A stretch of DNA of 64,000 nt, from the NCBI RefSeq assembly GCF_016591715.1, contig NZ_AP024109.1, positions 5,022,001 to 5,086,000 on the forward strand, given 5' to 3'. Shown here piece by piece: positions 25,812 to 42,725 of the stretch. The number at the start of each line of letters is the position of its first letter. The stretch's first letter is position 1. The notes under the pieces were generated by a model. That model searched no databases. It was not told the origin of the DNA and saw only the letters and a program-made list of their open reading frames with translations. The position numbers and the translations under genes are program-made. Source of the stretch: Mesorhizobium sp. J8 (GTDB lineage Bacteria; Pseudomonadota; Alphaproteobacteria; Rhizobiales; Rhizobiaceae).

Positions 25812-25877
25812 GGCCCAGCGGTCAGGGTAAGGACCGGGACAGCAACCGCTGGGCCGGACGGGAGCCTGCTCCTCCCG
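25812..25877. repeat. Double-hairpin element, copy A
   Basis: A 10-bp perfect stem GGCCCAGCGG/CCGCTGGGCC (25812-25821 and 25846-25855) is followed after 3 bases by CGGGAG/CTCCCG (25859-25864 and 25872-25877). Similarity to copy C continues to about 26005, ending in 'GGCCGGAACCTATTCC'. It lies 194 bases upstream of the stress gene at 25617. The rest of 25618-26182 holds no gene I can support. Confidence 0.7.
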
Positions 25878-26182
25878 ATGGCGAGATCTGAAAATTCCGC
25901 AGCTTCAGACCTCGCCGCCGCTCCCTGTCTACAGGGGGGGGTCTCGCCACGTTGTGTTCACCCTCGTTGCCACATTTACTGAGCCCGGCCGGAACCTATT
26001 CCAGACGGGACGATCAATTTCTTAGCGTTTGTCGGGCGGGTGCAGTGATGGCAAGTCATCACTGCTCAGCGCATGTCACCCGGCGTCGGGAGCCGCTAGG
26101 AATCGTTATGGCAGTTGAGCCACCCTGGATCCGCGCCCGGTTCGCTCAGGCCCTAGGTCGAAGCTCGCTGGCCAAACGAATA

Positions 26183-26749
26183 TCAAACCGAGCGCAAAAC
26201 GAAATCCAGCATTGCGGCAAGGGGTTCGGGGCTTTTCCTGAGGCGGCTGCGAAGCGCGGCCCCCTCCCAGCAATCCACCAGGAGATCCGCCATCCTTGCC
26301 GTGTCGACGTCGGCCGCGATGGCGCCCTCTTTCTTGGCCGCGTCGAGGCACAGTTGGAGCCTTTGGGCAATCGAGGAGAAGCACCATTCGATCTTCTCCC
26401 TGAAGACGTCACTGATGCCTGAGAGCTCCTGTCCGAGTCCGCCCATGAGACAGCCCAGATACCCTTCCTGTCGATAGCTCTCCTCCACCTGCCGGAAGAA
26501 GGAGCGAATGCGCTCCAGCGGCGGCACTGCAACATCGGCAATGCAAGCGTCAAGCGTTGCATGAACGCCGGCGATGTAGGTGTCGATTACCTGGAGGGCG
26601 AAATCCTCCTTGTCGGAGAAGTGGTGATAGAACGAACCTTTCGGCACCCCTGCCGAATCGAGCAGCGCCTGCAGGCCGAGATTGTTGTAGCCCTGCCTGA
26701 GCAGCATGGGCAGGCCTTCGCCAATGAGCCGTTGCTTCGTCGTGTGCAT
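26183..26749 (-). CDS. TetR/AcrR-family repressor
   Basis: A 188-residue regulator. The N-terminal helix-turn-helix (about 18-45) contains 'GVPKGSFYHHFSDKEDFALQ', the recognition helix shared by NemR/AcuR-type TetR proteins. The C-terminal ligand domain matches that branch, which often senses reactive electrophiles. It lies 82 bases downstream of the cupin gene on the same strand and probably represses both genes through the palindrome at 27231-27266. Confidence 0.9.
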   Translation of the reverse strand: MHTTKQRLIGEGLPMLLRQGYNNLGLQALLDSAGVPKGSFYHHFSDKEDFALQVIDTYIAGVHATLDACIADVAVPPLERIRSFFRQVEESYRQEGYLGCLMGGLGQELSGISDVFREKIEWCFSSIAQRLQLCLDAAKKEGAIAADVDTARMADLLVDCWEGAALRSRLRKSPEPLAAMLDFVLRSV

Positions 26750-26831
26750 CGCTTGTCAGAATGATCGCGCCGGGACGGCGCGACCATTACACCCAACGAG
26801 AACGGATTTCCAATTCCGGCGATCGCCCGCG

Positions 26832-27218
26832 CTACCGTTGGGTCTTTTTGACCATGTGATCGATCACATGGCTGTGCTCGTGCTGTGGGCTGAACATGAT
26901 AATGGCGGCATCCTCCTCGACGCGCACATTGTGTCCGGGAGGCCAGTAAAAGAGGTCGTCCTTTCGCACCGTCTCCTTCCGCCCCTGCGCATTCGTCGTG
27001 GTGATCTCGCCCTCGAGCACATAGCCCCAGTGCGGGCACTGGCAGCAGTCGTGGTCGAGGCCTTTGAACAGCGGCGTCGTGTCGACACCCTTGGAGAGAG
27101 AGAAATGTTCGGCGCTGATCTGATCGTAACCGGCGACGCTGCCAAAACCCAGGCGCTGCCTTATCACTGCTCCCGGAAGCTGAAGGCGTACGTCAACGTC
27201 ATCCTTTGCAACTTTCAT
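26832..27218 (-). CDS. Cupin-domain protein
   Basis: A 128-residue single-domain cupin. 'DHDCCQCPHWGYVLEGEITT' (about residue 55) and 'DDLFYWPPGHNVRV' form the two cupin motifs; the metal-binding His set is altered, with a CCQC cluster in motif 1 that is unusual. The C-terminus is histidine-rich ('QHEHSHVIDH'). The first gene after the perfect operator, it is probably induced when the TetR regulator binds its ligand. Its substrate is unknown. Confidence 0.8.
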   Translation of the reverse strand: MKVAKDDVDVRLQLPGAVIRQRLGFGSVAGYDQISAEHFSLSKGVDTTPLFKGLDHDCCQCPHWGYVLEGEITTTNAQGRKETVRKDDLFYWPPGHNVRVEEDAAIIMFSPQHEHSHVIDHMVKKTQR

Positions 27219-27230
27219 CGCGTTCCTCCA

Positions 27231-27266
27231 TATTAGACCACTCAGTCTAGACTGAGTGGTCTAATA
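27231..27266. promoter_or_regulatory. Perfect 36-bp palindromic operator
   Basis: All 36 bases are self-complementary around the centre between 27248 and 27249. Each half contains TAGACCACTCAGTCTA, itself an imperfect inverted repeat with TAGAC outer arms, the arm type seen in NemR-like TetR operators. It starts 12 bases upstream of the cupin ATG, overlapping its likely promoter. Two repressor dimers could bind side by side. Confidence 0.85.
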
Positions 27267-27460
27267 TGCGCGGTCGATTTAGTCAAACGAAAAAGCATCC
27301 CGAGGCGATCGCCCGCGCGGCGTGCAGGAGCGCCAAGAGCTGACGCGCCCCTATCCATCGCGGCGGAAGCGCCGCCGATCATGGGGCCGTTTGAGGGTTC
27401 ACGCCTGTATGAGTATGTGCAATGCTGCCAGATCGCGCTGAGTGCACAGCTTTCATGCGG

Positions 27461-28198
27461 CTAGTGGTGGCGTTCAAGCAGAGGGATCGGGGCAAGATTG
27501 ATCGGCTGGTACTGCGCCAGTCTTCCTAGTGCCTCGGAGTCGCTCAACACAATCAGCCGCGCGTTGCTGCTGATCAGCTGTTCGGCTCGCAGCTGCTGCA
27601 TGACGCGGTTCAGATGCGGCACGCTCAGCCCGAGGGCGTCTGCCATGACTTGCTGGGAAAAGGGCAGATCAAAACTCGTCTCCTGCGCCAGACCCACTTC
27701 GAAAAGGCGCGCATGAATTTCAAGCAAAAGGTGAGCCAGCCGCTCTATCGGTGTGCGCCTGCCGAGATTGACGATGTGCTCCGCATAGCTCGCCGCCTCC
27801 TGTGCTGCCAGCCAGCTGAGCACCAGGCCGAATTGCGGCTGGTCGTAGCAGAGACGGGTGTAGCGATCGATCCCACACACGGTGTACGTCAAATCCGTCA
27901 GCGCCTCGACGGCGTAGGTTGACCGATCGAAAAAGCTCACCGGAAATCCGATGACATCCCCGGGCAGGATGAGCTTGAGAATCTGGCGCTTGCCGCTGCG
28001 GAGCACCCTGTAACGTATGGCGTAGCCATCTTGGACAAAGCACAGGCTCCGAAACGGGGAACCTTGGATGATGAGTTCTTGCCGTTTCTTGATGCAAACG
28101 TCGCGTTCGAAAATCGCTTCAAGCGCTTCGACGTCGTCTGCGTTCAGTCTCATGACGCGGGTCAGTCTGGTCTTGATCGCGTGACCGTTCAACGGCAT
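27461..28198 (-). CDS. Crp/Fnr-family transcriptional regulator
   Basis: A 245-residue protein. An N-terminal cyclic-nucleotide-binding-like beta-roll (about 30-145) is followed by a long dimer helix and a C-terminal HTH_Crp with 'DLPFSQQVMADALGLSVPHL' (about 185-205). The N-terminal cysteine cluster that would hold an Fe-S centre is absent, so it is not an FNR-type oxygen sensor. It is transcribed divergently from the ABC importer and is a candidate regulator of it. Confidence 0.88.
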   Translation of the reverse strand: MPLNGHAIKTRLTRVMRLNADDVEALEAIFERDVCIKKRQELIIQGSPFRSLCFVQDGYAIRYRVLRSGKRQILKLILPGDVIGFPVSFFDRSTYAVEALTDLTYTVCGIDRYTRLCYDQPQFGLVLSWLAAQEAASYAEHIVNLGRRTPIERLAHLLLEIHARLFEVGLAQETSFDLPFSQQVMADALGLSVPHLNRVMQQLRAEQLISSNARLIVLSDSEALGRLAQYQPINLAPIPLLERHH

Positions 28199-28249
28199 GC
28201 GGCCTCCGATGCCCCGGGTCGTTGGGCCACCGCATCATGCGGCGACTTG

Positions 28250-28263
28250 TTAATCTAGATCAT
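28250..28263. promoter_or_regulatory. Possible Crp/Fnr-type binding site
   Basis: TTAATCTAGATCAT resembles the FNR/FixK box TTGAT-N4-ATCAA with two deviations. It lies in the divergent region between the Crp/Fnr gene (start 28198) and the importer (start 28414), where an operator of the local regulator would be expected. Confidence 0.4.
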
Positions 28264-28413
28264 TAATCGAAATCATCCAACGAAAGTTGCATTGACCAGA
28301 CCGCCAGCGCGGCTGCGAATGGCTTTCGGATCCGACCTGTTTCCTTGTCGGTTGGACGAAGCGGGGCTACGAGGAAAGCCCCAGAGGCTTTTTGGCCTAG
28401 GGAGGAAAATCCA

Positions 28414-29769
28414 ATGCCATTCAACGATGACAAACGAGCCGGCCTGTCTCGCCGCACTTTGCTGCACGCCGGTGCTGGCCTTGCGGGCAGCATGATGCTG
28501 CCTGTCTCGCTCATCAGCCCGGCCTCTGCATCCGGCGATCAGCCGGCGCTGGGCACATGGCCGGCAGGCTCGCAAGGCGATACGGTCTATATCGGTGCTA
28601 CTGTGCCGCGCACCGGCGCCTATGCCGTCCAGGGCGAGGACGAGCTCAAGGGCATGCAACTGGCCGTCGAGCACATCAACGAGGGGAACGACCTGCTCAA
28701 GCAGATAGCGCCGAAGATCGACAAGGGCGTTCTCGGCAAGAAGGTGGCCCTGGTCGTTGCCGATTCAGCCGCCAAGCCGAACAATGCGGTGCAGTCGCAG
28801 CAGACCTTCATCAACGACAACAAGATCATCGCCATGACGGGATCTACCTCTTCGGCAGTGGCGGTCGCACTCAACAAGTTCGCTCAGCGCGAGAAGATCC
28901 TCTATCTGGTGGCAATCTCCGGCTCCAACGATACCACCGGCAAGGACTGCGCGCGCTATTCGTTCCGCCAGTGCGTCTATGGAGAGACCTGCGCCAATGC
29001 GATCGGCCCGGTGCTGGTCAAGAATTTCGGCAAAGGCAAGAAGGCGGCCTTCATGACGCCTGACTATACCTACGGCCACACCGTCACCAAGTCGGTCAAT
29101 GACTATCTCACATCCCAGGGCGGTTGGGAGATGGTCACCAACCAGGTTTCGCCGCTCGGAACGCAGGACTTCAGCCAGTATCTCACCAACATCGCCAATT
29201 CCGGCGCTGAGTTCATCGTCAACGTCAACTGGGGCCGCGATGCCGTGCTCTCGGTGCAGCAGGCAAAGCAGTTCGGCCTGACGCCAACCATGAAGATGGT
29301 GATCCCCTACCAGATTCCGTTTCTGGCAAAGGAAGTCGGCCCGGACCTGACCGAGGGGGTCTTCGCCGCCACAGACTTCTGGTGGACGATGGAGGACAAA
29401 TATCCGCTTGCAAAGGCCTTCGTCGATGCCTTCCAGAAAAAATACGATTACCGCCCCGAATGGGGTGCGGAAAACGCCTACATGCAATTCGCCATCTGGG
29501 CGCGGATGGTCTCTGAAGCCGGCACTTTCTATCCGCCAGACGTCATCAAGCAGTATGAAAAGGGCGAGACCTTCCCCTCGATGGTCGGAGACGTCAAATT
29601 TCGGCCCGAGGACCACCAGCTCATCCGTCCCGTCGTCATCGTCCGCGGCAAGGCTGCCAAGGACATGAAGAACCCGGAAGACTTCTGGGAGGTCGTGGAG
29701 ATCGTGCCCGGCGAAGGCCTGATGCAGAAGCCCGATGCCTTTGGGTGCCAGCTTGGTGACTACACCTGA
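28414..29769 (+). CDS. ABC importer substrate-binding protein (LivK/urea-amide type, Tat-exported)
   Basis: A 451-residue periplasmic binding protein of the branched-chain amino acid type. The N-terminus has a Tat-like 'LSRRTLLHAGAGLAG' and a cleavage region around 'ASASG'. The mature part starts with 'VYIGATVPRTGAYAVQGEDE' and keeps the two-lobe Peripla_BP_6 fold. GGAGGAA lies 8 bases before the ATG at 28414. The ligand cannot be read from sequence; relatives take amino acids, urea or aromatic acids. The first gene of the importer operon. Confidence 0.9.
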   Translation: MPFNDDKRAGLSRRTLLHAGAGLAGSMMLPVSLISPASASGDQPALGTWPAGSQGDTVYIGATVPRTGAYAVQGEDELKGMQLAVEHINEGNDLLKQIAPKIDKGVLGKKVALVVADSAAKPNNAVQSQQTFINDNKIIAMTGSTSSAVAVALNKFAQREKILYLVAISGSNDTTGKDCARYSFRQCVYGETCANAIGPVLVKNFGKGKKAAFMTPDYTYGHTVTKSVNDYLTSQGGWEMVTNQVSPLGTQDFSQYLTNIANSGAEFIVNVNWGRDAVLSVQQAKQFGLTPTMKMVIPYQIPFLAKEVGPDLTEGVFAATDFWWTMEDKYPLAKAFVDAFQKKYDYRPEWGAENAYMQFAIWARMVSEAGTFYPPDVIKQYEKGETFPSMVGDVKFRPEDHQLIRPVVIVRGKAAKDMKNPEDFWEVVEIVPGEGLMQKPDAFGCQLGDYT

Positions 29770-29943
29770 CGCTCACGAAAATCCTCTTCGCATCGCCGGC
29801 GCCAACAAGGATCGTCGCTGCGTCACGGCCAGCTCAAAAGTGCGCCAAGCAATGTCTTCGCGCACTGAGCTCTGGCCGACCGGCAGTCGCGGGGCAGCCG
29901 GCGATGCGACAGCCAATTCGTCAACCTCAGTTCGGGCGACAGC

Positions 29944-30819
29944 GTGATCAATTGGGCCAACTTCCTATCGCAATGCTTCAACGGGCTGGTGCTTGGCGGG
30001 CTGCTGGCGCTGATTTCGTCCGGCCTGACAATCATCTACGGCACGCTTGGCGTCCTGAACCTGGCGCATGGCGCCATGTTCATGCTCGGCGGCTATGCCG
30101 GCTGGGTGGCCTATGATTACACAGGCTCTTTCCTCGTCGCGCTGATCGCCGGTTCACTCTTCGTCATGCTGGTCGGCGTGCTGATGGAGCGGCTGATCAT
30201 TCGCTATTTCTACTCGCGCCCGCAGGAGGATCAGATCCTGGTTACCTTCGGTCTGGGCATCGTCTTCGTCGAGACGGTACGCTTCTTCTTCGGCAGTCTG
30301 TCCAAGACGGTGCCGCCGCCGGCGCTGTTCCAGGGCATCACCAATCTGGGTTTCATGGTTTATCCGACCTATCGCCTCGCCTCGCTCGGCATTGTCACGG
30401 CGGCGCTGCTGGCCCTCTATCTGGTCCTCTACCGCACCCGCCTCGGCATGATCGTGCGTGCCGGCATAGAGGACTCCGTCATGGTCGGATCGCTGGGGAT
30501 CGACGTCTACAAGGTGTTCATGCTGGTGTTCGGCATCGGCGCCATGGCGGCTGGGTTCGCCGGCATCGTCAATGCGCCAGTGGTGTCGATCGCGCCGGAC
30601 GTCGGCGAGGCAATCCTGGTCCAGACCTTCGTCGTGGTCGTCATCGGCGGTGTCGGATCATTCCCGGGTGCGGTGCTGGGCGGCCTCATCGCCGGCGAGA
30701 TCATCTCCATCACCTCGATGTTCAACCCTGGCTATTCGTATGTCATGCTTTTCGTGGCGATGACCCTCGTGCTGGTATGGCGTCCCTACGGATTGCTTGG
30801 CACGGCAGGCCGCGAGTGA
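29944..30819 (+). CDS. Branched-chain amino acid-type ABC permease (LivH family)
   Basis: A 291-residue inner-membrane permease with about eight helices. 'GLVLGGLLALISSGLTIIYG' and 'LNLAHGAMFMLGGYAG' are the LivH hallmarks. It starts with GTG at 29944. The 174 bases between it and the binding-protein gene contain no other gene. It is followed 13 bases later by the fused permease-ATPase. Confidence 0.92.
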   Translation: MINWANFLSQCFNGLVLGGLLALISSGLTIIYGTLGVLNLAHGAMFMLGGYAGWVAYDYTGSFLVALIAGSLFVMLVGVLMERLIIRYFYSRPQEDQILVTFGLGIVFVETVRFFFGSLSKTVPPPALFQGITNLGFMVYPTYRLASLGIVTAALLALYLVLYRTRLGMIVRAGIEDSVMVGSLGIDVYKVFMLVFGIGAMAAGFAGIVNAPVVSIAPDVGEAILVQTFVVVVIGGVGSFPGAVLGGLIAGEIISITSMFNPGYSYVMLFVAMTLVLVWRPYGLLGTAGRE

Positions 30820-30832
30820 ACGCAATCCGCTC

Positions 30833-32671
30833 ATGAACCAGAAACATCCCTTTCTCGTCGAGGTGCTGACGGCGATCGCGTTGATCGCCGCACCGTTCAT
30901 CCTGCCGCACTTCGGCTTCGCACCGACCACCATCAACCGCATCCTGATCTGGGGGCTGTTCGGGCTCGGGTTCGACATCCTTTTCGGCTATACTGGCCTG
31001 CTTTCCTTCGGTCAGTCCGCCTTCTTCGGTACCGGCGGCATGTTCGCTGCCTACCTGTTGACCGAGCTGGACTTTCCCTACGTCATGGTGGCGATCATCG
31101 TCGGCGCCATCGTCGCCGGCCTTGTCGGCTACCTCGTTGGGCTGGTCGCGCTCAGACGGACCGGCATCTATTTCGCCATGATCACCGTAGCGATTTCGGA
31201 AGTCTTCTTTTTCGTCGAATTCAACCCGCTTTCTCACTACACCGGAGGCGAGAACGGCCTGCCGGGCGTGCCGACGCCGAGCGTATTCCTTGGGTTCACC
31301 ACGCTGACGTTCCATTCCGACAGGGCCATGTATGCTTTCCTGGCGTTCTGGTATTTCGTCGGCTTGGTCGCGGCGCTTCGCATCGTGCGCTCCCCGGTTG
31401 GGGCGATCCTTTCTGCCATCCGCGACAATCCGCAGCGCGCGGCGGCACTCGGGCACAATATCCACGCCTACAAGCACGCTGCCTTCGTGGCAGCCGCGAT
31501 CTACGCCGGTTTCGCCGGCGGCCTGCTTGGCGTCATGCAGGGATTCATGCCGCCGGACGCTTTCATGTTCGACACTTCCGGCCAACTCGTGATGCAAACC
31601 GCAATAGGCGGAGCCGGGTCGTTGTTCGGGCCGCTGATCGGCGCGACGGTGTGGCTTTTCCTCAGCGATTTTTTCCAGAACACACTCCATTTGGGTGCGA
31701 CATGGAAGCTGGTGCTCGGCATCGTTTTCGTGCTGCTGGTCGTCTTTCTGAGGCGCGGCATCGTCGGCGGAATTGCGGATCTCTACCGCATGGCTAAAGG
31801 CGCAAAGAAATCGGCGGAGCCGGCCGGGAACCCGGCGGCTGCCTCGGTGATCACGCCGGCCGCCACCGAGCCGATGCTGTCGCCAGCCCGTCCGACGCAC
31901 CGCGCTCCCGGCCCTATCCTTCGGGCTACAGGGTTGAGCAAGCGCTACGGTGGCCTGATGGCCAACAGCGATATTGATTTCACGATCAATCATGGGGAAA
32001 TCCGCGGTATCATCGGACCCAACGGCGCCGGTAAAAGCACATTCTTCAAAATGCTTACCTGCGAGGTCCCTCCAAGCTCGGGCAAGATCATGTTCGAGGA
32101 CCGTGACATTACCGGCATGAGCGTGACGGACGTCTGCCAACTCGGACTGACCAAAAGCTACCAGATCAACCAGCTCTTCGATCGGCTGACGGTCCGTCAA
32201 AATCTCACGATTGCTGCACTCGGCGAAATCCGAGGCAAATTCAGACTGGACCTCTTCCGCAATATCCTCAAAATCCCTGGCCTTGCCGAGCAGGTGGAGC
32301 GCACGCTGGCTCTGGTCAACCTGATGCACCGCGTAGACACGCCGGTTTCGGAACTTGCCTATGGCGAGAAGCGGCGGCTGGAGATCGGGCTAGCGCTTGC
32401 GACGTCGCCGAGCCTGCTGTTGCTGGACGAGCCGCTTGCCGGCATGAGTCCAAGCGAACGCATCGAGACGGTGGCGCTGTTGAGGTCGATCGCGCGCGGT
32501 CGCACGATGATCATCATCGATCACGACATAGATTCCCTGTTCGAACTGGTCGAAACGGTCACTGTCCTGCAAGAGGGCCGCGTGCTCGTTCATGGCACCC
32601 CAAAGGAGATCAAGTTCAATCCACGGGTTCAGGAAGCCTATCTCGGCGGCGTCCACGGAGAGATGGCATGA
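30833..32671 (+). CDS. Fused ABC permease-ATPase (LivM-LivG)
   Basis: A 612-residue fusion. Residues 1-320 are a LivM permease ('FGYTGLLSFGQSAFFGTGG'); a Pro/Ala-rich linker (about 322-362) leads to a LivG ATPase with Walker A 'GPNGAGKST' (about 396), signature 'LAYGEKRRLEIGLAL' (replacing LSGGQ) and Walker B 'LLLLDEP'. The usual arrangement is two genes, although such fusions occur elsewhere. The ATG at 30833 is preferred over earlier in-frame codons that overlap livH. It overlaps livF by 4 bases. Confidence 0.93.
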   Translation: MNQKHPFLVEVLTAIALIAAPFILPHFGFAPTTINRILIWGLFGLGFDILFGYTGLLSFGQSAFFGTGGMFAAYLLTELDFPYVMVAIIVGAIVAGLVGYLVGLVALRRTGIYFAMITVAISEVFFFVEFNPLSHYTGGENGLPGVPTPSVFLGFTTLTFHSDRAMYAFLAFWYFVGLVAALRIVRSPVGAILSAIRDNPQRAAALGHNIHAYKHAAFVAAAIYAGFAGGLLGVMQGFMPPDAFMFDTSGQLVMQTAIGGAGSLFGPLIGATVWLFLSDFFQNTLHLGATWKLVLGIVFVLLVVFLRRGIVGGIADLYRMAKGAKKSAEPAGNPAAASVITPAATEPMLSPARPTHRAPGPILRATGLSKRYGGLMANSDIDFTINHGEIRGIIGPNGAGKSTFFKMLTCEVPPSSGKIMFEDRDITGMSVTDVCQLGLTKSYQINQLFDRLTVRQNLTIAALGEIRGKFRLDLFRNILKIPGLAEQVERTLALVNLMHRVDTPVSELAYGEKRRLEIGLALATSPSLLLLDEPLAGMSPSERIETVALLRSIARGRTMIIIDHDIDSLFELVETVTVLQEGRVLVHGTPKEIKFNPRVQEAYLGGVHGEMA

Positions 32672-33366: not shown

Positions 33367-33573
33367 TGGGAGCTGTCCCAGCAAGTTGCGGAAAGCCAAT
33401 TCGCTCGCCCGTTGCGTAACGCGAGTTTCCCAACAAGCCGCAAAGGCCTGGCGCCCCAGGCGCAGGCCCTTGGCGTGGTCTTCTTTGGAAAGCAGGTCAG
33501 CTGTCTATTGTCTATCCAAACGCGTCGGCCAATCAGATGACAGCAGAAATTCTCCTTCCCGCTGCAATTCCAT

Positions 33574-33813
33574 TCAATAGTCCCGAACAGCGACGAGACG
33601 GCTGCCTCGGATAGTGGCCACCACGAGCCGGCCGTTCGGAGGGTATTTCGGCAATGCAGCCGCCTGATCCTCTATCGTTGCACCATCGATTTCGCACAAC
33701 GCGCCCCCGAGTAGCCAGTTCTGACCAGTCCTGTCGCCCACCACAGCTATGTAGTCGCCGTCGGCCGGGTAACCCATCAAACCTATCTGCTCATATTCTT
33801 CCAATTCGCGCAT
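33574..33813 (-). CDS. Small acidic protein, second gene of duplicated cassette (copy 1)
   Basis: A 79-residue protein of unknown function. 'GYPADGDYIAVVGD' and 'WLLGGALCEIDGATI' are shared almost unchanged with the protein at 40516-40809, showing common descent. GGAGGG lies upstream of the ATG. It is preceded on the minus strand by the double-hairpin element and a zinc-ribbon gene, the same order as at 40.5-41.2 kb. There is no signal peptide or membrane segment. The 33367-33573 gap holds nothing I can support. Confidence 0.7.
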   Translation of the reverse strand: MRELEEYEQIGLMGYPADGDYIAVVGDRTGQNWLLGGALCEIDGATIEDQAAALPKYPPNGRLVVATIRGSRLVAVRDY

Positions 33814-33884
33814 GTGCGTTTACATCCCTCCAAACGACATCGTTTCAAATCTATGGATGGCAAGATGCCGCGCCTGTCGTGCGC

Positions 33885-33946
33885 GGCCCGGCACCACCCC
33901 AACGGGTGCCGGGCCGCAAGGAAGTGCCCGCGCGGTCGCACTTCCT
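33885..33946. repeat. Double-hairpin element, copy D
   Basis: An 11-bp perfect stem GGCCCGGCACC/GGTGCCGGGCC (33885-33895 and 33905-33915) and a 9-bp perfect stem AGGAAGTGC/GCACTTCCT (33919-33927 and 33938-33946). It lies between the zinc-ribbon gene (22 bases after its stop on the minus strand) and the small acidic gene (71 bases before its start). Confidence 0.8.
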
Positions 33947-33967: not shown

Positions 33968-34258
33968 TCAAGAGCTGCTCGACCGAGGCATCGACGACTC
34001 GTTGGCGCAAGCCACGAGCGCAAGCTGTCGCGTGGCTGCGGCTTGTTGCCGGGCTTGAGACAGCCATAAGGCTCTATGCTCCTGAGCAAGACCTCTCATG
34101 GCCGAGCGCGCCGCGGGGGTGATCTCGTACGCGCCGCAAAAGGCGCATGGGAACTCTGCCTGCCGGTGCGCCAGATCGGCTTCCAGGGCGGCTCCCTCAC
34201 AAATCGGGCAAGTTGATGGATAGTATTTACGGCCTTTGTCAAACGGCAAAACGTTCAT
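33968..34258 (-). CDS. Zinc-ribbon protein, first gene of duplicated cassette (copy 1)
   Basis: A 96-residue protein with two zinc knuckles (CPIC and CAFC, 20 residues apart), a helical middle and a variable C-terminus. 'YYPSTCPICEGAALEADLA' aligns directly with the protein at 40928-41197. It probably binds one zinc; nucleic-acid or protein binding is possible but unproven. No strong ribosome site is visible. Copy B of the double-hairpin element lies 58 bases upstream on the minus strand. Confidence 0.7.
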   Translation of the reverse strand: MNVLPFDKGRKYYPSTCPICEGAALEADLAHRQAEFPCAFCGAYEITPAARSAMRGLAQEHRALWLSQARQQAAATRQLALVACANESSMPRSSSS

Positions 34259-34316
34259 TCGCGGGCACCGCTTTTTTCGGCATTAAGTTCTGTCATACAC
34301 TTGCGCACCCTCCGGA

Positions 34317-34372
34317 GGCCCAGCGGCTGCATGGAGATAACAACCGCTGGGCTTGACGGGAGCGTCGTTCCG
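34317..34372. repeat. Double-hairpin element, copy B
   Basis: A 9-bp perfect stem GCCCAGCGG/CCGCTGGGC (34318-34326 and 34344-34352) and a weaker second hairpin CGGGA/TTCCG (34357-34361 and 34368-34372, one G-U pair). Similarity to copies A and C resumes near 34492 with 'GCGAACTATTCC'. It lies between the divergent zinc-ribbon gene and the PRC-barrel gene. Confidence 0.65.
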
Positions 34373-34540
34373 AACGCAAGGCGCTCGCCGTAATGACTGC
34401 GTCCGTCACCTCCGATATCTCCGGCAGGCAGGCTGGGTTTGCCGGACAGGCCGAAGGTTCATCCCTACTTCTCGACTTACTGGGCAGGGGGGCGAACTAT
34501 TCCGAGCCAGAAGACATATTTTTTCATACGCAATTTGCTC

Positions 34541-34565: not shown

Positions 34566-34631
34566 GTGCCCGTAGTCCATCAGCCGCCTGCGAGGGCGAA
34601 ATGGGCTTCATTGTCAACAGGAGATTCCCTC

Positions 34632-35477: not shown

Positions 35478-35483
35478 TCATTC

Positions 35484-35512
35484 GAGGGCCGCTCCGATCC
35501 CGAGCGGCCCTC
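35484..35512 (+). terminator. Terminator-like hairpin after the PRC-barrel gene
   Basis: An 11-bp perfect stem GAGGGCCGCTC/GAGCGGCCCTC (35484-35494 and 35502-35512) with a 7-base loop, 7 bases after the stop. No T-run follows, so it may act as a 3' stabiliser rather than a classical terminator. Confidence 0.6.
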
Positions 35513-36280
35513 GCCACTGGTCGACTTTCCGACGGCACACGTTTGAGCACGCTGCCGACGGGAGCCGTGTCCGTGATGCGGGCTGATGCTGGCGTCTCTC
35601 GGGAAGCCTGGGGTAAAGCGCAAACCCAATCTTGCCTCACCGCATCCGACGCCGTCCCTTGATTCACGAGATGCCGGCCAGTGCGCCAGGTTGAGCCGAA
35701 TGCCCACGGCGCGCATGAAGCTCGGGAATGGCAGATTTTATCGCGCGCAGCCAATGAACTCACTTGCTGCCGATCGGATTTCGTCCGCGGCCGTCACGTT
35801 CCGGCCAGCCACCTGGCCGGCGCAGGTTGCCGCTCGGTCGCCGTCCGTGTGGTCTCCTGACTTGCCCCCCAGTTGCACAGAGCTTTCGCGACAAGGCCTG
35901 AGGCCCCACGGAAGCGACCGAGCCCGCCGCCCACACATATTTGCGACTGTCGTGGAATAGTTTCTGCTCGGGATCGGTAGATGCAGCAACGAGGTGAAGT
36001 TTGTCCGTGCTCGCCACTTTGAACAATTTTCGGATGCTCATGCCGAGCGTTTCTGGCGCCGCAATATGGGAGACGAGCGCTCGAGGATCTGCACCGAAGC
36101 TCTGGAGGCCGAAACTTCTGCCTCTCGGACCCGGCATCCCCCTACCCCGCATCTTGATCTGGATCGCCCCCGCCGAGAAAACCCCATCATCTCGGTCGAT
36201 CGACCGATCGCCACACGACCAGCATCCACGAGGGCGCTGGAAAGCAACCTGAGACACAGGCGTCTCAAAGGGAGGAAACT
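35513..36280. other. Intergenic, no supported gene
   Basis: About 770 bases. Open frames on both strands (for example minus 35760-36257) are Arg/Ser-rich, lack ribosome sites and match nothing I know. GGGAGG at the right end serves the next gene. No EcfG consensus was seen. Confidence 0.45.
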
Positions 36281-36700
36281 ATGGAACAAACATTTTCGCA
36301 ACGCTTCGACGCTTACCAACCGTCAAAGACGCTGTGGTTCTGGACGGTGGTATGTGCCGTTGTGCTGACGATGATCGTCGGCTTCACGGCCGGAGGCTGG
36401 ACGACGGCTGGAACGGCGGCGGAGATGGCCAAGACATCGGCCATCAAGGCAAAGGCCGAGCTGGCAGCCAATCTCTGCGTCCAAAAATTTATTACAGCGT
36501 CGAATGCCAGCGACAACCTCGCCAAGCTGAAGGAAACCTCTTCTTATCAGCGAGACAGCTTCATCAGCGATGGCGGATGGGTGAAGCTGGCCGGGATAAA
36601 CAAGGATGTGCCGGGTGCGGCGGATCTGTGTGCCGACAAATTGTCAGCGATGGACACGATCCCGACGAACAGCGTGGCTCAGGAGAACACCAAAAGCTGA
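36281..36700 (+). CDS. Single-pass membrane protein, function unknown
   Basis: A 139-residue protein with a short cytoplasmic N-terminus, one membrane helix (about 20-42, 'VCAVVLTMIVGFTAGGW') and a soluble helical periplasmic part with two cysteines (about 67 and 119) that could pair. GGGAGGAAAC precedes the ATG. It resembles a Rhizobiales-conserved hypothetical family. It begins a row of four same-strand genes with short gaps, possibly co-transcribed. Confidence 0.75.
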   Translation: MEQTFSQRFDAYQPSKTLWFWTVVCAVVLTMIVGFTAGGWTTAGTAAEMAKTSAIKAKAELAANLCVQKFITASNASDNLAKLKETSSYQRDSFISDGGWVKLAGINKDVPGAADLCADKLSAMDTIPTNSVAQENTKS

Positions 36701-36756
36701 TGACTCGCCCGGCGGACGGTGTGTCGCCGGGCGCTACTCGCGACGGAGGCGCAGCC

Positions 36757-37002
36757 ATGGACGAAGCGTGGTTTTCAAGGCCGGTGCCAGTGGCTAACGG
36801 CATATCAGGGGAGATCAACAACGTCCTCAATGCCAACCAGGCGATCGACCTGCTTACCAAGCACTGGCGCGGCGCGGGAAGCCAGAAGCACAAGACGGCG
36901 CTGCGAGCCTGCCGGCAAGCTATGAACGGCGGTATCGCGGCCGACCTTGCCAGGGACGCTTTGATCGACGCGGCTCGAGAGGCGCACATGCTCGTCGAGT
37001 AA
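36757..37002 (+). CDS. DUF982 protein
   Basis: An 81-residue protein with the DUF982 layout: 'W-F-x-x-P-V-x-V' start, a mid 'A-I-D-L-L-x-x-x-W' helix and a C-terminal 'A-R-D-A-L-I-D-A-A-R-E-A'. The family is nearly confined to Rhizobiales and has no known activity. ATG 36757 has GGAGG upstream; an in-frame ATG at 36700 overlapping the preceding stop is the alternative. Confidence 0.82.
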   Translation: MDEAWFSRPVPVANGISGEINNVLNANQAIDLLTKHWRGAGSQKHKTALRACRQAMNGGIAADLARDALIDAAREAHMLVE

Positions 37003-37015
37003 GCAGCTCGTCGTC

Positions 37016-37582
37016 ATGGCAAAACGCGGAGCTCCGTTCGGTTTCCTGCCGGCCAGACGGCAAACTGGACCTCGCGGGCGGCTTGCCTTCGTCCGTGTCG
37101 TCCTTGCAATTCTGTTGCTCGCGGCGTCGGCCAACACCACGGGCGCCCTGCGAGCGGACGCTGGCTCGTTTCCCCTGCCTCGTTTCGTCTCGCTAAAGGC
37201 TTCGTCCGCCAATCTGCGGGTTGGGCCAGGTGTCGGCTATACTATCGAATGGGTCTTCAAACGACGTGGCATCCCCCTGGAGATCTATCAGGAGTACGGC
37301 AATTGGCGACGGGTGAGAGATTGGGACGGAAGCTCCGGCTGGATCCATCACTCGCTCCTGTCAGGGCGCAGAACCGGCGTCGTCGCTCCCTGGTCTAGGC
37401 AGCCGCTTGCCTTGTACGCGAAGCCGGCGGCGGACAGCGCCATCCTTGCGTGGCTCGAGCCTCGCGTGGAAGTCGAGCTGACCCGATGCGACGGACAATG
37501 GTGCGCGATCGCATCGGGTGCCTCAAGGGGTTTCATGAAACAAACCGGGCTATGGGGCGTCTACCCGGGCGAAGTGCTCTAA
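37016..37582 (+). CDS. Exported SH3-like domain protein
   Basis: A 188-residue protein with a basic N-terminus, a signal-like hydrophobic segment (about 26-42) and two bacterial SH3-type repeats: 'SANLRVGPGVGYTIEWVF' (about 63) and 'PLALYAKPAADSAILAWLEP' (about 125). Such domains bind peptidoglycan or other cell-wall ligands. It lies 13 bases after the DUF982 gene and 14 before the FAD monooxygenase gene, so it is probably in the same transcript. Confidence 0.85.
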   Translation: MAKRGAPFGFLPARRQTGPRGRLAFVRVVLAILLLAASANTTGALRADAGSFPLPRFVSLKASSANLRVGPGVGYTIEWVFKRRGIPLEIYQEYGNWRRVRDWDGSSGWIHHSLLSGRRTGVVAPWSRQPLALYAKPAADSAILAWLEPRVEVELTRCDGQWCAIASGASRGFMKQTGLWGVYPGEVL

Positions 37583-37596
37583 CCTGGTGACTCTGG

Positions 37597-38787
37597 ATGG
37601 CCGAGCGAACGGTGTTGATTTCAGGCGGAGGAATTGCCGGACCGGCACTGGCTTTTTGGCTTGCAGCCGCCGGATTCCGGCCGACGCTGATCGAACGGGC
37701 GCCCCAATTGCGCACTGGGGGCTATGTCATTGATTTTTGGGGCCTTGGCTATGACATCGCCTCGTGGATGGGCCTTGAGGCAGATATCAATCGCGTAGGA
37801 TATCACGTGCGCGAAATGCGCATCGTGGGTGAGAACGGCAAGCGTGTCGGAGGCTTTGGCACGGACGTCTTCGGCGAACTGACAAACGGCCGCTACGTGA
37901 CCCTCGCACGCAGCGATCTCTCGCGACTGCTCTTCGAAAAGATCAAAGACACCACCGAAGTCATTTTCGACAATGAGATCGTCGGGCTCGAAGAAAACTC
38001 GCATGGTGTACGGGTGCAACTGGAACGTGGAGGCGAACGCGACTACTCGCTGGTAGTCGGCGCCGATGGCTTGCATTCAGGCGTTCGGCGGCTCGCGTTC
38101 GGACCGCAGCATCAGTTTGAGAAGAAGCTCGGCTACGCCGTCGCGGCATTCGAGGCCGAGGGCTACCGGCCACGCGATGAAGACGTGTATTTGATGTACG
38201 GCCTGCCGGGGCGGATGCTCGGCCGTTTCACGTTGCATGGCAACCGCACCCTTTTCCTGTTCGTCTTCACCGTTGGTGAGAGTCCGTTGCCAACGGCGCT
38301 GGACCTGCAAAAGGAAATGCTGCGCAACAAGTATGCCGATGGCGGATGGGAATGCCCTCGTATCTTGGAGGAACTGGGTCATACGGATGAGCTCTACTTT
38401 GACAGCGTCAGCCAGATCGCGATGAACAGATGGGCCAAAGGTCGCGTAGTGTTGATCGGCGATGCCGCCTTTTGCGTTTCCCTGCTAGCTGGGCAGGGCT
38501 CGGCGCTGGCCATGATTTCCGCCTATGTTCTGGCAGGGGAGCTCTTAAAGGCTGATGGTCGAGATGAAGAGGCGTTCGGCAGCTACGAAGCGGTTTTGCG
38601 GAACTACATACGAACCAAGCAGCAGGGAGCGGCGCGATTCGCCAGCGCCTTGGCACCCAGGACGCGGCTCGGACTTTTGTTCCGCAATCTGGTGACAAAG
38701 GCTTTCTTAATACCCGGCCTGGCGCGTCTGGTGATCGGAAAAGAAATTACTGACGCACTGGACCTCCCCGATTATCCCTGGCGTTAG
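37597..38787 (+). CDS. FAD-dependent aromatic-hydroxylase-type monooxygenase
   Basis: A 396-residue group A flavoprotein monooxygenase. The Rossmann motif 'VLISGGGIAGPALAFWLAA' (residues 6-24), the DG motif 'VVGADGLHSGVRRL' (about 152) and the second FAD motif 'GRVVLIGDAAFCVSLLAGQG' (about 280) are intact. The overall pattern resembles TetX/FAD-binding_3 family members. It uses NAD(P)H and O2 to hydroxylate an unknown substrate. Confidence 0.88.
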   Translation: MAERTVLISGGGIAGPALAFWLAAAGFRPTLIERAPQLRTGGYVIDFWGLGYDIASWMGLEADINRVGYHVREMRIVGENGKRVGGFGTDVFGELTNGRYVTLARSDLSRLLFEKIKDTTEVIFDNEIVGLEENSHGVRVQLERGGERDYSLVVGADGLHSGVRRLAFGPQHQFEKKLGYAVAAFEAEGYRPRDEDVYLMYGLPGRMLGRFTLHGNRTLFLFVFTVGESPLPTALDLQKEMLRNKYADGGWECPRILEELGHTDELYFDSVSQIAMNRWAKGRVVLIGDAAFCVSLLAGQGSALAMISAYVLAGELLKADGRDEEAFGSYEAVLRNYIRTKQQGAARFASALAPRTRLGLLFRNLVTKAFLIPGLARLVIGKEITDALDLPDYPWR

Positions 38788-39494
38788 CCGGTCCCGGCTG
38801 CAGCACTACACCTCTCTCTTCGGAAAGCGATTCCCGAACCCGTTGCCTGGCGGACGATAGGCTGCAAGCCTCCACTTCCTGGAAGACGAGTTGCCGCTGC
38901 TCTGGTCGGTCCCCTCCCCGGGTCATGCGGATGAATGCCAAGGCCAGCTGCGGACACTGCCGGTTGATCCTCATTTTCACTTCTTTGCCGCGCGCTTGGC
39001 TGGGCGGATCCAGCGCCGTGACTGTGTTAGGGTAGGCTTTTCCTCAAGGACAGGCATGGCAGGCATCTCGCGGAAATACCCCATGCTGCGGCGCTCGCGG
39101 GCAGGACTTCGCGTCGCATCCGGCAACCGCGCGTTGTCTTCTGAGCTGGAGCCATATCGACCGGATTGATCAGCGTGCCGTTCGCGGCTCTCGGATGTGT
39201 GCGGCGATGTTGGGCTACGGCACGGCTGGCCTCGTTTCGCGCGAGCCTCTTTATCACGCGCTATCGCGCGTGTTCGTGGCCGAGGCGATCCGGGGGCGCA
39301 GGGTGGATGGCGCTGACGATGCAGCAAAAGCTTAGTCAGGACAGCAAAATATTTGCGCACGACCGATCAGAAATGGCAGCACCAACCCGGGCTTTGAGGA
39401 ATGGCGCCGAAGGCTGTTGGGGAGCGCCCATCAACAGTGTGATTTTCTACTAGCCAGCGCCCCGCGTCCGGAGTTCCATCGAAGACGTGAGGCC
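38788..39494. other. Intergenic, no supported gene
   Basis: About 700 bases between convergent genes. Overlapping open frames on both strands are short, Arg-rich and lack ribosome sites. No repeat element or terminator with a T-run was seen. Confidence 0.45.
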
Positions 39495-40259
39495 TCACAG
39501 CACCCAGCGGAACGCCCGCCTCAACTCAGCAGTCCCGTCTTTGTCATACCATCGGCCATGCGAGATGATGACACGCTCCGGATGCCAGGCCAGCATCTCC
39601 TGCACAGCCATGCGCAGCGCTCTGCGGCGTCGGAAGAAGCTCAGCCGCATGTCGATTGGTGCCTTGCCGTCGGGGTCGGCGGCACCTGCGAATCTTACGA
39701 GCAGTTTCAAGAACCAGCTGTGTATCCGCTTTGGCTCGAAGTTCTCGATCAGGTCGGTGAGGATCAGCGTTCGCGTGGCGCGGTGGAACAACACAGCTTC
39801 GGTCAGCACATCGCCTCGAACGACCAAAAGGTCGACTTCGCCAGGCCATGGTGAGTGCCGCCCCACCAGAAGCCGGTCCACGGCAATCGGACGCTTGGCC
39901 CGCTTCTGCAAACCGCGCACGGCCAGAACTTCGGCATTGGGAATGGCGGCCTTCCAGTCCGGTACCCACCAGTAGTGCAGCGAGTTCGGAGCAATCAAAA
40001 ATCGGACCGGGCCGAGCACATCGACCGCCGATCGCAGCGCCGGGGTCAGAGCTACCGGCGAGTGGAGCGCCAGATCGCCGTTGCGGAGCCGCAGAACCGT
40101 CATGCGGGTACTGAAGGGAAATTTCATCAGGCCGAGGTCAAAGTCTATCGGCGGTCCATCCACGATCCACACGTCCGGTGCGACCGGCTTGAGAACATTG
40201 ATCGGCTCGTACAGGTTCAACGCGGACTGGCCGTTCAAAGATTCCTCAGGGCTCGGCAT
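39495..40259 (-). CDS. DUF4336 protein (metallo-beta-lactamase-fold-like)
   Basis: A 254-residue soluble protein. 'VWIVDGPPIDFDLGLMKFPF' near residue 30 and 'FLIAPNSLHYWWVPDWKAA' near 86 are DUF4336 segments; the domain resembles degenerate metallo-beta-lactamase folds with incomplete metal ligands. The C-terminal 'HPERVIISHGRWYDKDG' keeps a histidine. Its function is unknown. It ends the minus-strand group that starts with the zinc-ribbon gene at 41197. Confidence 0.82.
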   Translation of the reverse strand: MPSPEESLNGQSALNLYEPINVLKPVAPDVWIVDGPPIDFDLGLMKFPFSTRMTVLRLRNGDLALHSPVALTPALRSAVDVLGPVRFLIAPNSLHYWWVPDWKAAIPNAEVLAVRGLQKRAKRPIAVDRLLVGRHSPWPGEVDLLVVRGDVLTEAVLFHRATRTLILTDLIENFEPKRIHSWFLKLLVRFAGAADPDGKAPIDMRLSFFRRRRALRMAVQEMLAWHPERVIISHGRWYDKDGTAELRRAFRWVL

Positions 40260-40330
40260 CAGCTCTCAATCCTTCGGAGTGGCTCGGCGTGGGTCAGCAA
40301 CCACTTCCGCGCTGGCGCGCCGTCAGCCAT

Positions 40331-40519
40331 TCACGAACAGCCAAGGCGGACGACTTGCGATCTTGCGACCCTCATTTCGGCGGCGGCTGCGACCAGCGCC
40401 GCTTCGATGTCGGCGTCGAACGACATCGACCCGGATTCTCGCAGCATTGCCGCGGCGCGGATTTCGGCAGGCGCGTCATCAAGGGCGAGCGCGTCTCGGG
40501 CGTCTGATCCGCTCGTCAT
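40331..40519 (-). CDS. Small alanine-rich hypothetical protein
   Basis: A 62-residue protein, ATG overlapping the stop of the preceding cassette gene (ATGA), so translational coupling is possible. It is Ala/Asp-rich and helical, with no motif recognised. The overlap is the main evidence that it is real. Confidence 0.4.
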   Translation of the reverse strand: MTSGSDARDALALDDAPAEIRAAAMLRESGSMSFDADIEAALVAAAAEMRVARSQVVRLGCS

Positions 40520-40809
40520 GACGGCAACTCCGGCCGCTCGTTGGCCTGAGTGTCATCGTAGCTCCGGATGGCGACAACCCAGTCCTTCCTGATCGTGGCG
40601 AGCACGAGACGGCAACCTCGCGGATAATAGCGCGGCAGCGCCGCAGCCTGTTCAGCAATAATGGCACCGTTGAAGCCGCACAGCTCGCCTCCGAGCAGCC
40701 AATCTTCATGGTCGCCAACCACCGCGATGTAGTCTCCATCGCAGGGATAGCCGATCAGCCCAACTTCCTCGTAGTCTTCAAGCTTGCGGATCGCGTTTGC
40801 TGCACTCAA
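40516..40809 (-). CDS. Small acidic protein, second gene of duplicated cassette (copy 2)
   Basis: A 97-residue protein. 'EEVGLIGYPCDGDYIAVVGD' and 'DWLLGGELCGFNGAII' align with the protein at 33574-33813; this copy has a longer C-terminal tail. TTG at 40809 has GAGAGG 8 bases upstream and is preferred; an ATG at 40848 lacks a ribosome site and sits next to the hairpins. Its function is unknown. Confidence 0.65.
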   Translation of the reverse strand: MSAANAIRKLEDYEEVGLIGYPCDGDYIAVVGDHEDWLLGGELCGFNGAIIAEQAAALPRYYPRGCRLVLATIRKDWVVAIRSYDDTQANERPELPS

Positions 40810-40855
40810 GCCGGACACCTCTCGGTACAAGATCGGACACAAACACATCTGGAAC

Positions 40856-40909
40856 GGCCCGGCACCACTCGCCGGGCCGCAAGGAAGTATCCGCGCGGGC
40901 GCACTTCCT
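40856..40909. repeat. Double-hairpin element, copy E
   Basis: An 8-bp stem GGCCCGGC/GCCGGGCC (40856-40863 and 40871-40878) and a 7-bp stem AGGAAGT/ACTTCCT (40882-40888 and 40903-40909), with the linker GCA identical to copy D. It lies 19 bases after the zinc-ribbon stop and 46 bases before the next start on the minus strand. Confidence 0.75.
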
Positions 40910-40927
40910 GACTGCCATGACGCACAT

Positions 40928-41197
40928 TCACGATCCGCCCCGCGACAGCGTCTCGTTTGCACAGGCAACAAACGGGACAGTCGAATTCTGTTGCCTAGCC
41001 TGCGACAGCCACATCCTTCGGTTCTCCCCGGAGAGCCCCTTCATTGCGACGCGCGCTGCCGAAGTGATTTCAAAGGGGCCGCAACAAGCGCATTGGAACT
41101 CGACCTTGCGCAGCGCGATATCAGCCTCCAAGGCGGCGCCAGCACAGATCGGACATTTTGAGGGATAATATCGTCTCTCAAACGACAAAATGTTCAT
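40928..41197 (-). CDS. Zinc-ribbon protein, first gene of duplicated cassette (copy 2)
   Basis: An 89-residue protein with CPIC and CACC knuckles 20 residues apart. 'YYPSKCPICAGAALEADIA' pairs it with the protein at 33968-34258; 'LWLSQARQQ' is also shared. ATG 41197 follows an in-frame GTG at 41200; AAGAAGG lies upstream. It is the first gene of a minus-strand group running to DUF4336. No hairpin element lies upstream of it, unlike copy 1. Confidence 0.7.
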   Translation of the reverse strand: MNILSFERRYYPSKCPICAGAALEADIALRKVEFQCACCGPFEITSAARVAMKGLSGENRRMWLSQARQQNSTVPFVACANETLSRGGS

Positions 41198-41301
41198 CAC
41201 ACGAGCCTTCTTCGGGCCTTAAAGAGAGCGACGCACCGAGGCCGAGGCAGCTGCGGCGCCGATGGGGGAGGATGGGAACGCGCGTCAACGTTAGGCGACG
41301 A

Positions 41302-42087
41302 TCAACCTCGAGTCTTGGGAGCAACATTCCTGCGCGTGGCGACTTCAATCTGCTTTGCTTCCACCTCGAGCCGGTCTGGCGCGGCGGATCCCATCAAGGC
41401 ATAGGCGGTGCCTCCAGACTGCCAGTAGACCGTTGGCACGCGTCCGTCCGTCGCCGGGGTGGGAGGCACTGCGTCCTCGCCATTCATGGGGGCTGCCACC
41501 AGCGTGATACGACCAACGCTTGGCGTATCGGCCGTGACGACGAGGCTTTGTTTCCCGTTCCACGGCTGCACCTGGACGTCCTTCACCACCCACACCGACG
41601 GCAGGGTCGGCATGCTGACGTTGACGGCACCGACCAGTCGTTCGATCTTGTCCTGCTTCGGCTCGACGCCTCTTTCCGGGCCCGCATTCAGTTGCGCGAC
41701 CCGCAACGCGTCTCGCGCGGCCAAGATGAAAGTCTCATCAGCCGTCTTGCCGCCTTGGCGGAGCGGCACAGTCAACGAGTTCGCGCCCCAGCCGATCGCA
41801 ACCAGCACGACGGCGGCGACCTGGAGCCTCAGTATTGCCAACATCTTTCCGCGGCGAAAGGCACTCTCCAGTCGCTTCGCCTTCTCCATGCTCGCGGCAG
41901 GCGGAAACAGCCGCTGTGGCTGTGAGGCGCGCAACGCCTCCATACGTTGTGCATGAGCAAAGACCTCCGCCGCCAGCTCCGGCTCACGTGCGAGGCGGGC
42001 TTGCAGGTCCGATCTCTGCGACGCTGAAAGCTCACCGTCCAGAAGGCGACCGATATCCTCTTCGGAAATCCCATCAGTAGGCCGCAT
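41302..42087 (-). CDS. Anti-sigma factor (membrane-anchored, RskA-like)
   Basis: A 261-residue protein. The N-terminal cytoplasmic part contains 'ISEEDIGRLLDGELSASQRS', the helical start of zinc-free anti-sigma domains; one membrane helix (about 83-104) is followed by a periplasmic domain with 'VWVVKDVQVQPWNGKQSLVV'. The start overlaps the sigma gene by 14 bases. It would hold the sigma factor inactive until an envelope signal. Confidence 0.85.
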   Translation of the reverse strand: MRPTDGISEEDIGRLLDGELSASQRSDLQARLAREPELAAEVFAHAQRMEALRASQPQRLFPPAASMEKAKRLESAFRRGKMLAILRLQVAAVVLVAIGWGANSLTVPLRQGGKTADETFILAARDALRVAQLNAGPERGVEPKQDKIERLVGAVNVSMPTLPSVWVVKDVQVQPWNGKQSLVVTADTPSVGRITLVAAPMNGEDAVPPTPATDGRVPTVYWQSGGTAYALMGSAAPDRLEVEAKQIEVATRRNVAPKTRG

Positions 42088-42604
42088 CGCGCCCTCCCAC
42101 GATCTTGAGACGGGAAGACCCGTCCTCTTTGTCTTCCAGGTTTTGCTTCAACGCCGCTCGGGCGCGGCTGAGGCGCGACATCACGGTCCCTGCCGGCACA
42201 CCCAGAAGATTGGCGGTCTCTGAATATGTGAACCCCAGCACCGCAACCAGATGCAGTATCTCCGCTTGCTCGGCCGGCATTCGCGTCAGCGCCCTTTGTA
42301 CCTTCGCGAGTTCAGCCGAATGCTCCTGCGAGGGCGGCAAGGCCGATTCTGCTAGTTCCGCAAATGATGCCATGCGCTGCCGGGTGGCAACGGCCCGGCT
42401 GGCGTTCGTGAGGAATGTGTTGCGGACGATGGTGATGAGCCAGGGCAGCAAGGGACGTGAGGTGTCGTAGCTGGCGGCCATCGTCAGTGCGCGGGCAAGC
42501 GCCTCCTGGACCAAGTCGTCCGCATCAGAATCGTTGCCGGTGAGGACGCGACCGTAACGCCAAAGATCCTCGAGGTGCGGTATGACGTCCAACCTGGTTT
42601 TCAT
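42074..42604 (-). CDS. ECF-type RNA polymerase sigma factor
   Basis: A 176-residue sigma-70 family factor of the ECF class. Region 2 has 'DADDLVQEALARAL' (about 26-39) and region 4 'YSETANLLGVPAGTVMSRLS' (about 130-150). It is co-transcribed with its anti-sigma partner. Its region 2 does not let me assign it as EcfG, and no NepR/PhyR genes are nearby, so the GGAAC promoters of this window need not be its targets. Copy C of the double-hairpin element lies 66 bases upstream of its ATG. Confidence 0.93.
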   Translation of the reverse strand: MKTRLDVIPHLEDLWRYGRVLTGNDSDADDLVQEALARALTMAASYDTSRPLLPWLITIVRNTFLTNASRAVATRQRMASFAELAESALPPSQEHSAELAKVQRALTRMPAEQAEILHLVAVLGFTYSETANLLGVPAGTVMSRLSRARAALKQNLEDKEDGSSRLKIVGGRDAAY

Positions 42605-42670
42605 ATCACCAAGATATACTCTTTTGCGTCACTTCAGGATCTCCATTTTGAATCTGGCTGACAGGTAGAC

Positions 42671-42725
42671 GGCCCAGCGGGCAGGGACAGCTTCCGCTGG
42701 GCCGACTGGGAGCGTGCTCCTCCCG
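42671..42725. repeat. Double-hairpin element, copy C
   Basis: A 10-bp perfect stem GGCCCAGCGG/CCGCTGGGCC (42671-42680 and 42694-42703) followed by GGGAG/CTCCC (42708-42712 and 42720-42724). Similarity with copy A extends to about 42855 ('GGCCGGAAACTATTCC'). It is the main content of the 42605-42991 gap between the divergent sigma gene and the small gene at 42992. Confidence 0.7.

Follow-up and report, generated by a model that had tools for sequence, protein, structure and literature searches.

Analysis of a 64,000-nt stretch of the Mesorhizobium sp. J8 genome (contig NZ_AP024109.1, positions 5,022,001 to 5,086,000 of the forward strand; hereafter the window, in whose numbering all positions are given) led us to characterise three of its minus-strand hairpin segments, A, B and C, as copies of one conserved hairpin-bearing unit lying behind a promoter sequence of the ECF26 type (ECF, extracytoplasmic function sigma factor). 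The RNA of this element is likely to be a small regulatory RNA (sRNA) acting via a C-rich hairpin loop and, at the same time, the 5' leader of sigma factor and zinc-ribbon operons. To the reading of A, B and C as a regulatory RNA with a second role as leader we assign a probability of about 0.5. If it is true, a sigma-driven RNA would let a gene-activating sigma factor also switch genes off or tune translation, here in a genus of root symbionts. An initial annotation of the window had correctly located A, B and C together with two further hairpin pairs, D and E.

The promoter-to-P3 unit and its occurrence

A, B and C each form the 3' end of a unit on the minus strand. The units are homologous, and in each an ECF26-type promoter is followed by about 155 predicted nt, the last part of which is a hairpin, P3 (GGCCCAGCGG, a C-rich loop and CCGCTGGGCC, minus strand). 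The three units can be aligned across approximately 190 nt, promoter included; each starts with GGAATA-N17-GTA (at 26002 in A, 34503 in B and 42851 in C) and P3 ends 182-192 nt from the promoter start. The promoters, all on the minus strand, are GGAATAGGTTCCGGCCGGGCTCAGTAAAT at 25974..26002 for A, GGAATAGTTCGCCCCCCTGCCCAGTAAGT at 34475..34503 for B, which stricter whole-genome patterns missed, and GGAATAGTTTCCGGCCGGCCTTGGTAAAT at 42823..42851 for C. The segment CTATTCC that the initial annotation had seen in all three copies is indeed common to them and is the reverse complement of the ECF26-type -35 box. Behind these promoters, again on the minus strand, lie the structured cores made of helices P1, P2 and P3: that of C, ahead of the sigma operon, at 42670..42782 (R1 model, 99.4 bits; P3 at about 42671-42704), that of the orphan copy A at 25811..25934 (107.4 bits) and the diverged core of B at 34316..34422 (59.6 bits), in which P3 is intact and P1 and P2 are weak.

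A covariance model of the core was built from 24 sequences, A, B and C being among the sources. When searched against the J8 genome, a single contig of 6.69 Mb, it recovered A (E = 1.9e-20), B (8.8e-10) and C (1.2e-18) only, with E-values of 8.8e-10 or lower that lie beyond chance, the next match having E = 4.0. Among relatives, whose loci and genomes are labelled L and G respectively, the eight weakest of 41 model rows (opposite-strand matches, D/E-type hairpins and L163) were removed by a cut at E <= 1e-6 ahead of the pair counts, L163 was excluded from the model-search sources and duplicate loci were counted once. A promoter with at most one mismatch was found 173-221 nt (median 193) ahead of the P3 end in all 30 distinct copies, in none of the 30 downstream control windows and on the opposite strand in six of 30, these six being the divergent promoter. 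Since 24 of the 30 copies had been collected using the promoter as a criterion, the six that were recovered by the model alone are of particular relevance, and all six carry it. The promoter of every one of the 30 copies fits the ECF26 consensus of Sinorhizobium meliloti, GGAATA at -35 and GT at -10 (PMC6180224). Two whole-genome promoter patterns gave four matches each in the J8 genome, three of them within this locus.

When the 30 copies were realigned to the model, 94.0% of paired cells were kept (91.1 in shuffled alignments) and 20 double-change cells were counted against 5.9 after shuffling, a value reached by none of 500 shuffles in this structure-fitted alignment; an unfitted MAFFT alignment, onto one row of which the structure was drawn, gave 14 against 4.1, again with 0/500. 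These changes sit mainly in P2, a helix absent from the initial annotation. P3 is near-invariant in sequence, and an unbroken UCCC, CUCC or CCCC tract is present in 29 of the 30 P3 loops (mean 13, maximum 21 for shuffled loops). The second stem that the annotation had described, a local GGGAG/CTCCC hairpin, fared less well: it showed no covariation in the 30 sequences, it is degraded in B-type copies, and B itself keeps only three of the five pairs. P1 and this local hairpin share one 3' arm, and 25 of the 30 copies can form the five local pairs in full. A two-state switch between the two is possible by sequence, but the local hairpin lacks covariation.

No Rfam family matched the window at its gathering score, and a permissive Rfam search of 25000-44000 returned three sub-threshold matches, none of them at A to E. 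A candidate pseudoknot between the 5' arm of P1 and the P3 loop was noticed by eye. A variable 5' hairpin, P0 (GACGUGGC...GCCACGUC), was likewise seen by eye within the first 60 nt past the promoter in many, not all, single-sequence folds (L025, L031, L049 and L074, for example; not C), and was excluded from the model.

Strong matches to the element (best hit of at least 80 bits) occurred in 22 of 146 Mesorhizobium genomes, and the sigma protein, at 66-100% identity, in the same 22; because these genomes are related, 22 of 22 does not amount to 22 independent events. None of the 124 genus genomes without this sigma factor had a strong match. One extra genome of the genus encodes a 45% sigma homologue and had no element match, and eight sigma-lacking genomes gave weak matches only (29.3-36.8 bits), which were left out of the count because they belong to a different Mesorhizobium element. 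In a sample of the order comprising 397 genomes from 141 genera, searched with stricter filters, the element was found only in its own genome; two other genera of this sample hold sigma homologues of 54-55% identity, and P3 was not found in the 400 nt upstream of these.

The different element just mentioned is a second Mesorhizobium double hairpin, with the same 3' hairpin GGCCCAGCGG/CCGCTGGGCC, mostly a C-rich loop, and a different first hairpin; many copies show a different conserved 5' box (TTCGTTCGCATG...). Its loci (L080-L087, L101-L110, L112, L113, L115-L117, L122 and L124-L127, some of which overlap) lie in other Mesorhizobium genomes, four of which have three pattern matches each, and the bare hairpin pattern occurs in 49 of the 146 genus genomes (four for the reversed control). 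Eight of the loci were compared with Rfam and gave no match at the element. It is possibly another small RNA family.

Downstream genes, orphan copies and the D/E hairpins

Within the window all of the following genes lie on the minus strand. C is followed by an ECF sigma factor gene (42074..42604; PF04542/PF08281 and TIGR02937), a putative anti-sigma factor gene (41302..42087), the zinc-ribbon gene ZR2 (40928..41200, an open reading frame (ORF) with homologues, whose Pfam matches are all sub-threshold) and small acidic protein gene 2 (40516..40809, TTG start, with homologues in relatives). The putative anti-sigma factor has one predicted membrane span by hydropathy, at residues ~80-100, and a weak NCBIfam anti-sigma match of 29.5 bits, below the cut-off; with this reservation, the sigma factor is co-encoded with a one-span anti-sigma factor, as in ECF26 regulons. 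B heads a second pair, ZR1 (33968..34258, an ORF) and small acidic protein gene 1 (33574..33813), and A now heads a YflT-domain gene (25072..25617; PF11181). The start-codon distances of the initial annotation were confirmed for the minus strand: 66 nt for C, 58 for B, 71 for D, 46 for E (TTG at 40809) and 194 for A.

Across relatives, most copies have a gene after them. Seventeen of the 22 genomes, with 19 loci, have the element in sense before sigma, and any sigma, zinc-ribbon or acidic gene seen 3' of it is on its own strand. The distance from P3 to the start codon is 30-171 nt for sigma, 58-128 nt for zinc-ribbon and 116-227 nt for acidic genes, so that the fixed distance which the annotation had expected of a leader RNA was not observed. 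In five genomes (G027, G183, G021, G169 and G009) the sigma promoter lies 34 nt before the ATG and the sigma mRNA would therefore be nearly leaderless; the element is absent directly upstream of sigma in these five. It stands before the acidic gene in G027 and G183, and no sigma, zinc-ribbon or acidic gene was found 3' of it in the stretches fetched from G021, G169 and G009. Of two more distant sigma homologues, one likewise has its promoter 34 nt before the ATG; none was found for the other. For G009, G169 and G021, homology with the sister loci runs out no more than 6 nt from where P3 ends; that of G009 picks up again past the position that the acidic gene occupies in G027 and G183. G009 also holds L163, which consists of a promoter and a P3-like hairpin only; the loop of this hairpin is C-rich and its base changes are paired.

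Copy A is followed by the remnant of a lost sigma gene's 5' part (25727..25788, minus strand), a 62-bp alignment to the sigma start of L044; for four of the seven sigma starts tried, none of 500 shuffles scored as high. The counterpart of A in G161 gave a 115-bp sigma-start alignment (0/500 for five of seven starts, 1/500 and 82/500 for the remaining two), and the 4.3 kb retrieved 3' of it showed no YflT gene. Between A and the sister-genome copy, identity is 26/29 in the promoter, 118/124 (95%) in the core and 64/100 in the next 100 nt; the farther flanks are unrelated (72/188 downstream, 54/136 upstream). The core of C is more conserved than the spacer from P3 to the ATG in all four comparisons (for example 110/112 and 51/64 against L040, 91/112 and 26/57 against L025). 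The promoter-to-P3 unit is thus what stays, which speaks for a function independent of any single gene that follows it, and since the element survives where the downstream gene was lost it is likely to be a small regulatory RNA itself and not a leader only.

Two further promoters of this type, both lacking the RNA core, lie on the plus strand of the window. One, at 35954..35982, is upstream of a gene at 36281-36700; the other, a divergent GGAATA-N17-GTA at 42908..42933, faces a small membrane-protein-like ORF (match at 42992-43138). Both are likely to belong as well to a compact sigma regulon at this locus. Named relatives of the window sigma gene come from Mesorhizobium (11/13) and metagenome bins (2/13). 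The zinc-ribbon and acidic-protein cassettes at 33574-34258 and 40516-41200 are paralogous; the 34 zinc-ribbon homologues found are from Mesorhizobium wherever the source names an organism, the others bearing no name, and one source labels some of them predicted RNA-binding Zn-ribbon proteins (DUF1610).

Hairpins D (33884..33946, minus strand, with a GGGGU loop) and E (40855..40909, minus strand, without the GGGG tract) lie in the two paralogous cassettes, each between the zinc-ribbon gene and the acidic gene, where relatives have the same double hairpin. They are alike only to each other (blastn of D to E, 4e-11; nothing else in the genome at E <0.1). Four D/E-type elements scored weakly with the A/B/C model (22.8-26.0 bits, E 0.001-0.007), within the range of its opposite-strand matches in the same search (22.1-26.6 bits). 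The five copies that the initial annotation had joined therefore form two classes, A/B/C and D/E, and a single family was ruled out; for the same reason the exchange of an A-T pair in A to C for G-C in D and E, which it had presented as compensatory, spans two classes and is not covariation. Covariation is present within D/E itself, as it is in P2 of the core: 16 sequences gave 10 double-change cells in the helix against 3.0 shuffled (0/500 as high), the number of pair types not exceeding that of the shuffles. The second loop bears GGGG in 15 of the 16 sequences, E being without it, and a terminator-like run follows the second stem in some (TTTT in L043, L046 and L164; TTTCG in L047 and L048). 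D and E are likely to be a separate intercistronic element in the same operons, terminator- or processing-like.

Weighing the explanations

We propose that the sigma factor would transcribe its own operon plus the orphan copies, that partial termination or processing would let an RNA of about 155 nt with its end at or near P3 accumulate, while some transcription would continue into the operon, and that the C-rich P3 loop may pair with G-rich stretches of other mRNAs, in the manner of the Caulobacter sRNA GsrN. A more far-reaching version, in which the ECF sigma factor has its own trans-acting RNA as a detachable 5' leader, a leader and free sRNA in one that outlives genes and silences or activates G-rich targets, possibly the D/E loops among them, through the C-rich loop, seems to us rather unlikely.

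Several observations besides the relatedness of the 22 genomes weigh against a regulatory RNA that is also a leader. Sigma-driven transcription, the RNA end and the targets are predictions from sequence, and the ECF26 label comes from the promoter and the resemblance to an anti-sigma factor rather than from a classifier. Pairing of the P3 loop with sigma start regions was no better than with shuffles (mean z -0.03, n = 18), and it did not exceed shuffles for the start regions of the other local genes; kissing with the G-rich D/E loops gave a mean energy of -7.62 against -7.65 shuffled (18 pairs, E not included), not above shuffles either. For two weaker covariation measures of the core, 20 and 10 of the 500 shuffles did as well; P1 and P3 are too uniform for their covariation to say much, and P1 and P2 are largely lost in B-type copies. 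The core of B is not conserved above its spacer (56/64 and 39/42 against 53/57 in comparison with L039). As for the copies without their former gene, the relic after A fails for three of the seven sigma starts (5, 13 and 49 of 500 shuffles), the window's own included; A, its counterpart and the G021 copy have a same-strand ORF 195-404 nt downstream; and G009 has the reduced P3 unit upstream of sigma's own promoter. Finally, no consistent U-run follows P3, so that a discrete 3' end is at most predicted.

The initial annotation had favoured a structured 5' leader, and a purely cis-acting one, controlling translation, stability or read-through, for instance by exchange of P1 and the local hairpin, is an alternative that we hold to be possible, if less than probable. 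The promoter in 30 of 30 copies, the covariation of P2 and the same-strand genes agree with a leader; 17 of the 22 genomes place a sense copy before sigma, as expected of a simple leader, others place one before zinc-ribbon or acidic genes, and the 3' arm shared by P1 and the largely formable local hairpin would suit such an exchange. The leader reading is nevertheless incomplete because several copies persist without a downstream gene, and it has to accommodate the varying spacing to the start codon, a local hairpin without covariation and five genomes in which sigma would be nearly leaderless. Were P3 instead an intrinsic or Rho-assisted terminator setting the amount of sigma operon mRNA, with a short RNA as by-product, the enrichment of T and pyrimidines right after it would be accounted for (mean 3.2 T in 10 nt against 1.9 in the background; at least four T in 10 of 30 copies against 9.6% of background windows; CTTTTTC in L027 and L048), as would the homology blocks that stop near P3. 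Such an attenuator is unlikely, given that most copies, C included (GTCTACCTG), have no U-run, that loop and stem sequence of P3 are kept beyond the needs of termination and that orphan copies have no such operon.

The annotation had also offered a RIME-like repeat. RIME and REP repeats are GC-rich intergenic palindromes, and one of these might have landed by chance behind promoters; the P3-like hairpin in the second Mesorhizobium element, present in several copies in some genomes, could be taken in its favour. The element differs from them in that the 6.69 Mb J8 genome has three copies only, every one behind a promoter and with internal covarying structure, strand and promoter spacing are constrained, and strong matches are restricted to sigma-bearing genomes, so that we consider a dispersed repeat highly improbable. 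The preferred reading, a regulatory RNA also serving as leader, can be set directly against a leader alone, as the element is seen parting from the sigma gene in evolution and the orphan copy A allows a direct test.

Comparison with known systems

Enterobacterial sigma-E switches genes off via its sRNAs. In Caulobacter, sigma-T tunes translation through GsrN, an sRNA dependent on sigma-T/EcfG that uses its C-rich loop to pair with the katG leader; no other part of GsrN is as conserved as this exposed loop, and GsrN homologues are typically found near sigma genes (PMC5869019). Compared by description, the element resembles GsrN in its conserved C-rich loop and in its tie, predicted here, to an ECF-type sigma factor encoded in the same genome. 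It differs in having an ECF26-type GGAATA/GTA promoter where that of GsrN is of the EcfG type, in preceding the sigma operon and occurring in several copies, and in carrying the C-rich loop in the 3' hairpin and not in a 5' loop.

The S. meliloti ECF26 regulons of RpoE1, RpoE3, RpoE4 and RpoE6 share with this locus the promoter and the order of sigma followed by a one-span anti-sigma factor, and most are autoregulated (PMC6180224), as is predicted here. The ECF26 section of that paper reports no structured leader or sRNA with an ECF26 promoter; SMa_sRNA_10, the sole sRNA correlated with RpoE6, is described there as lacking an ECF-type promoter. Nor did the portions of the open-access literature that were covered yield an ECF26-driven structured RNA or sRNA. 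AbcR-type rhizobial sRNAs, with their anti-Shine-Dalgarno motifs (PMC7143759), are similar in having CU-rich unpaired motifs in a multi-hairpin RNA; their promoters and that of NfeR1 differ, and the element lies outside the Rfam families. Taken together, these comparisons describe the element as a putative sigma-linked C-rich-loop RNA of known design, here embedded as a leader.

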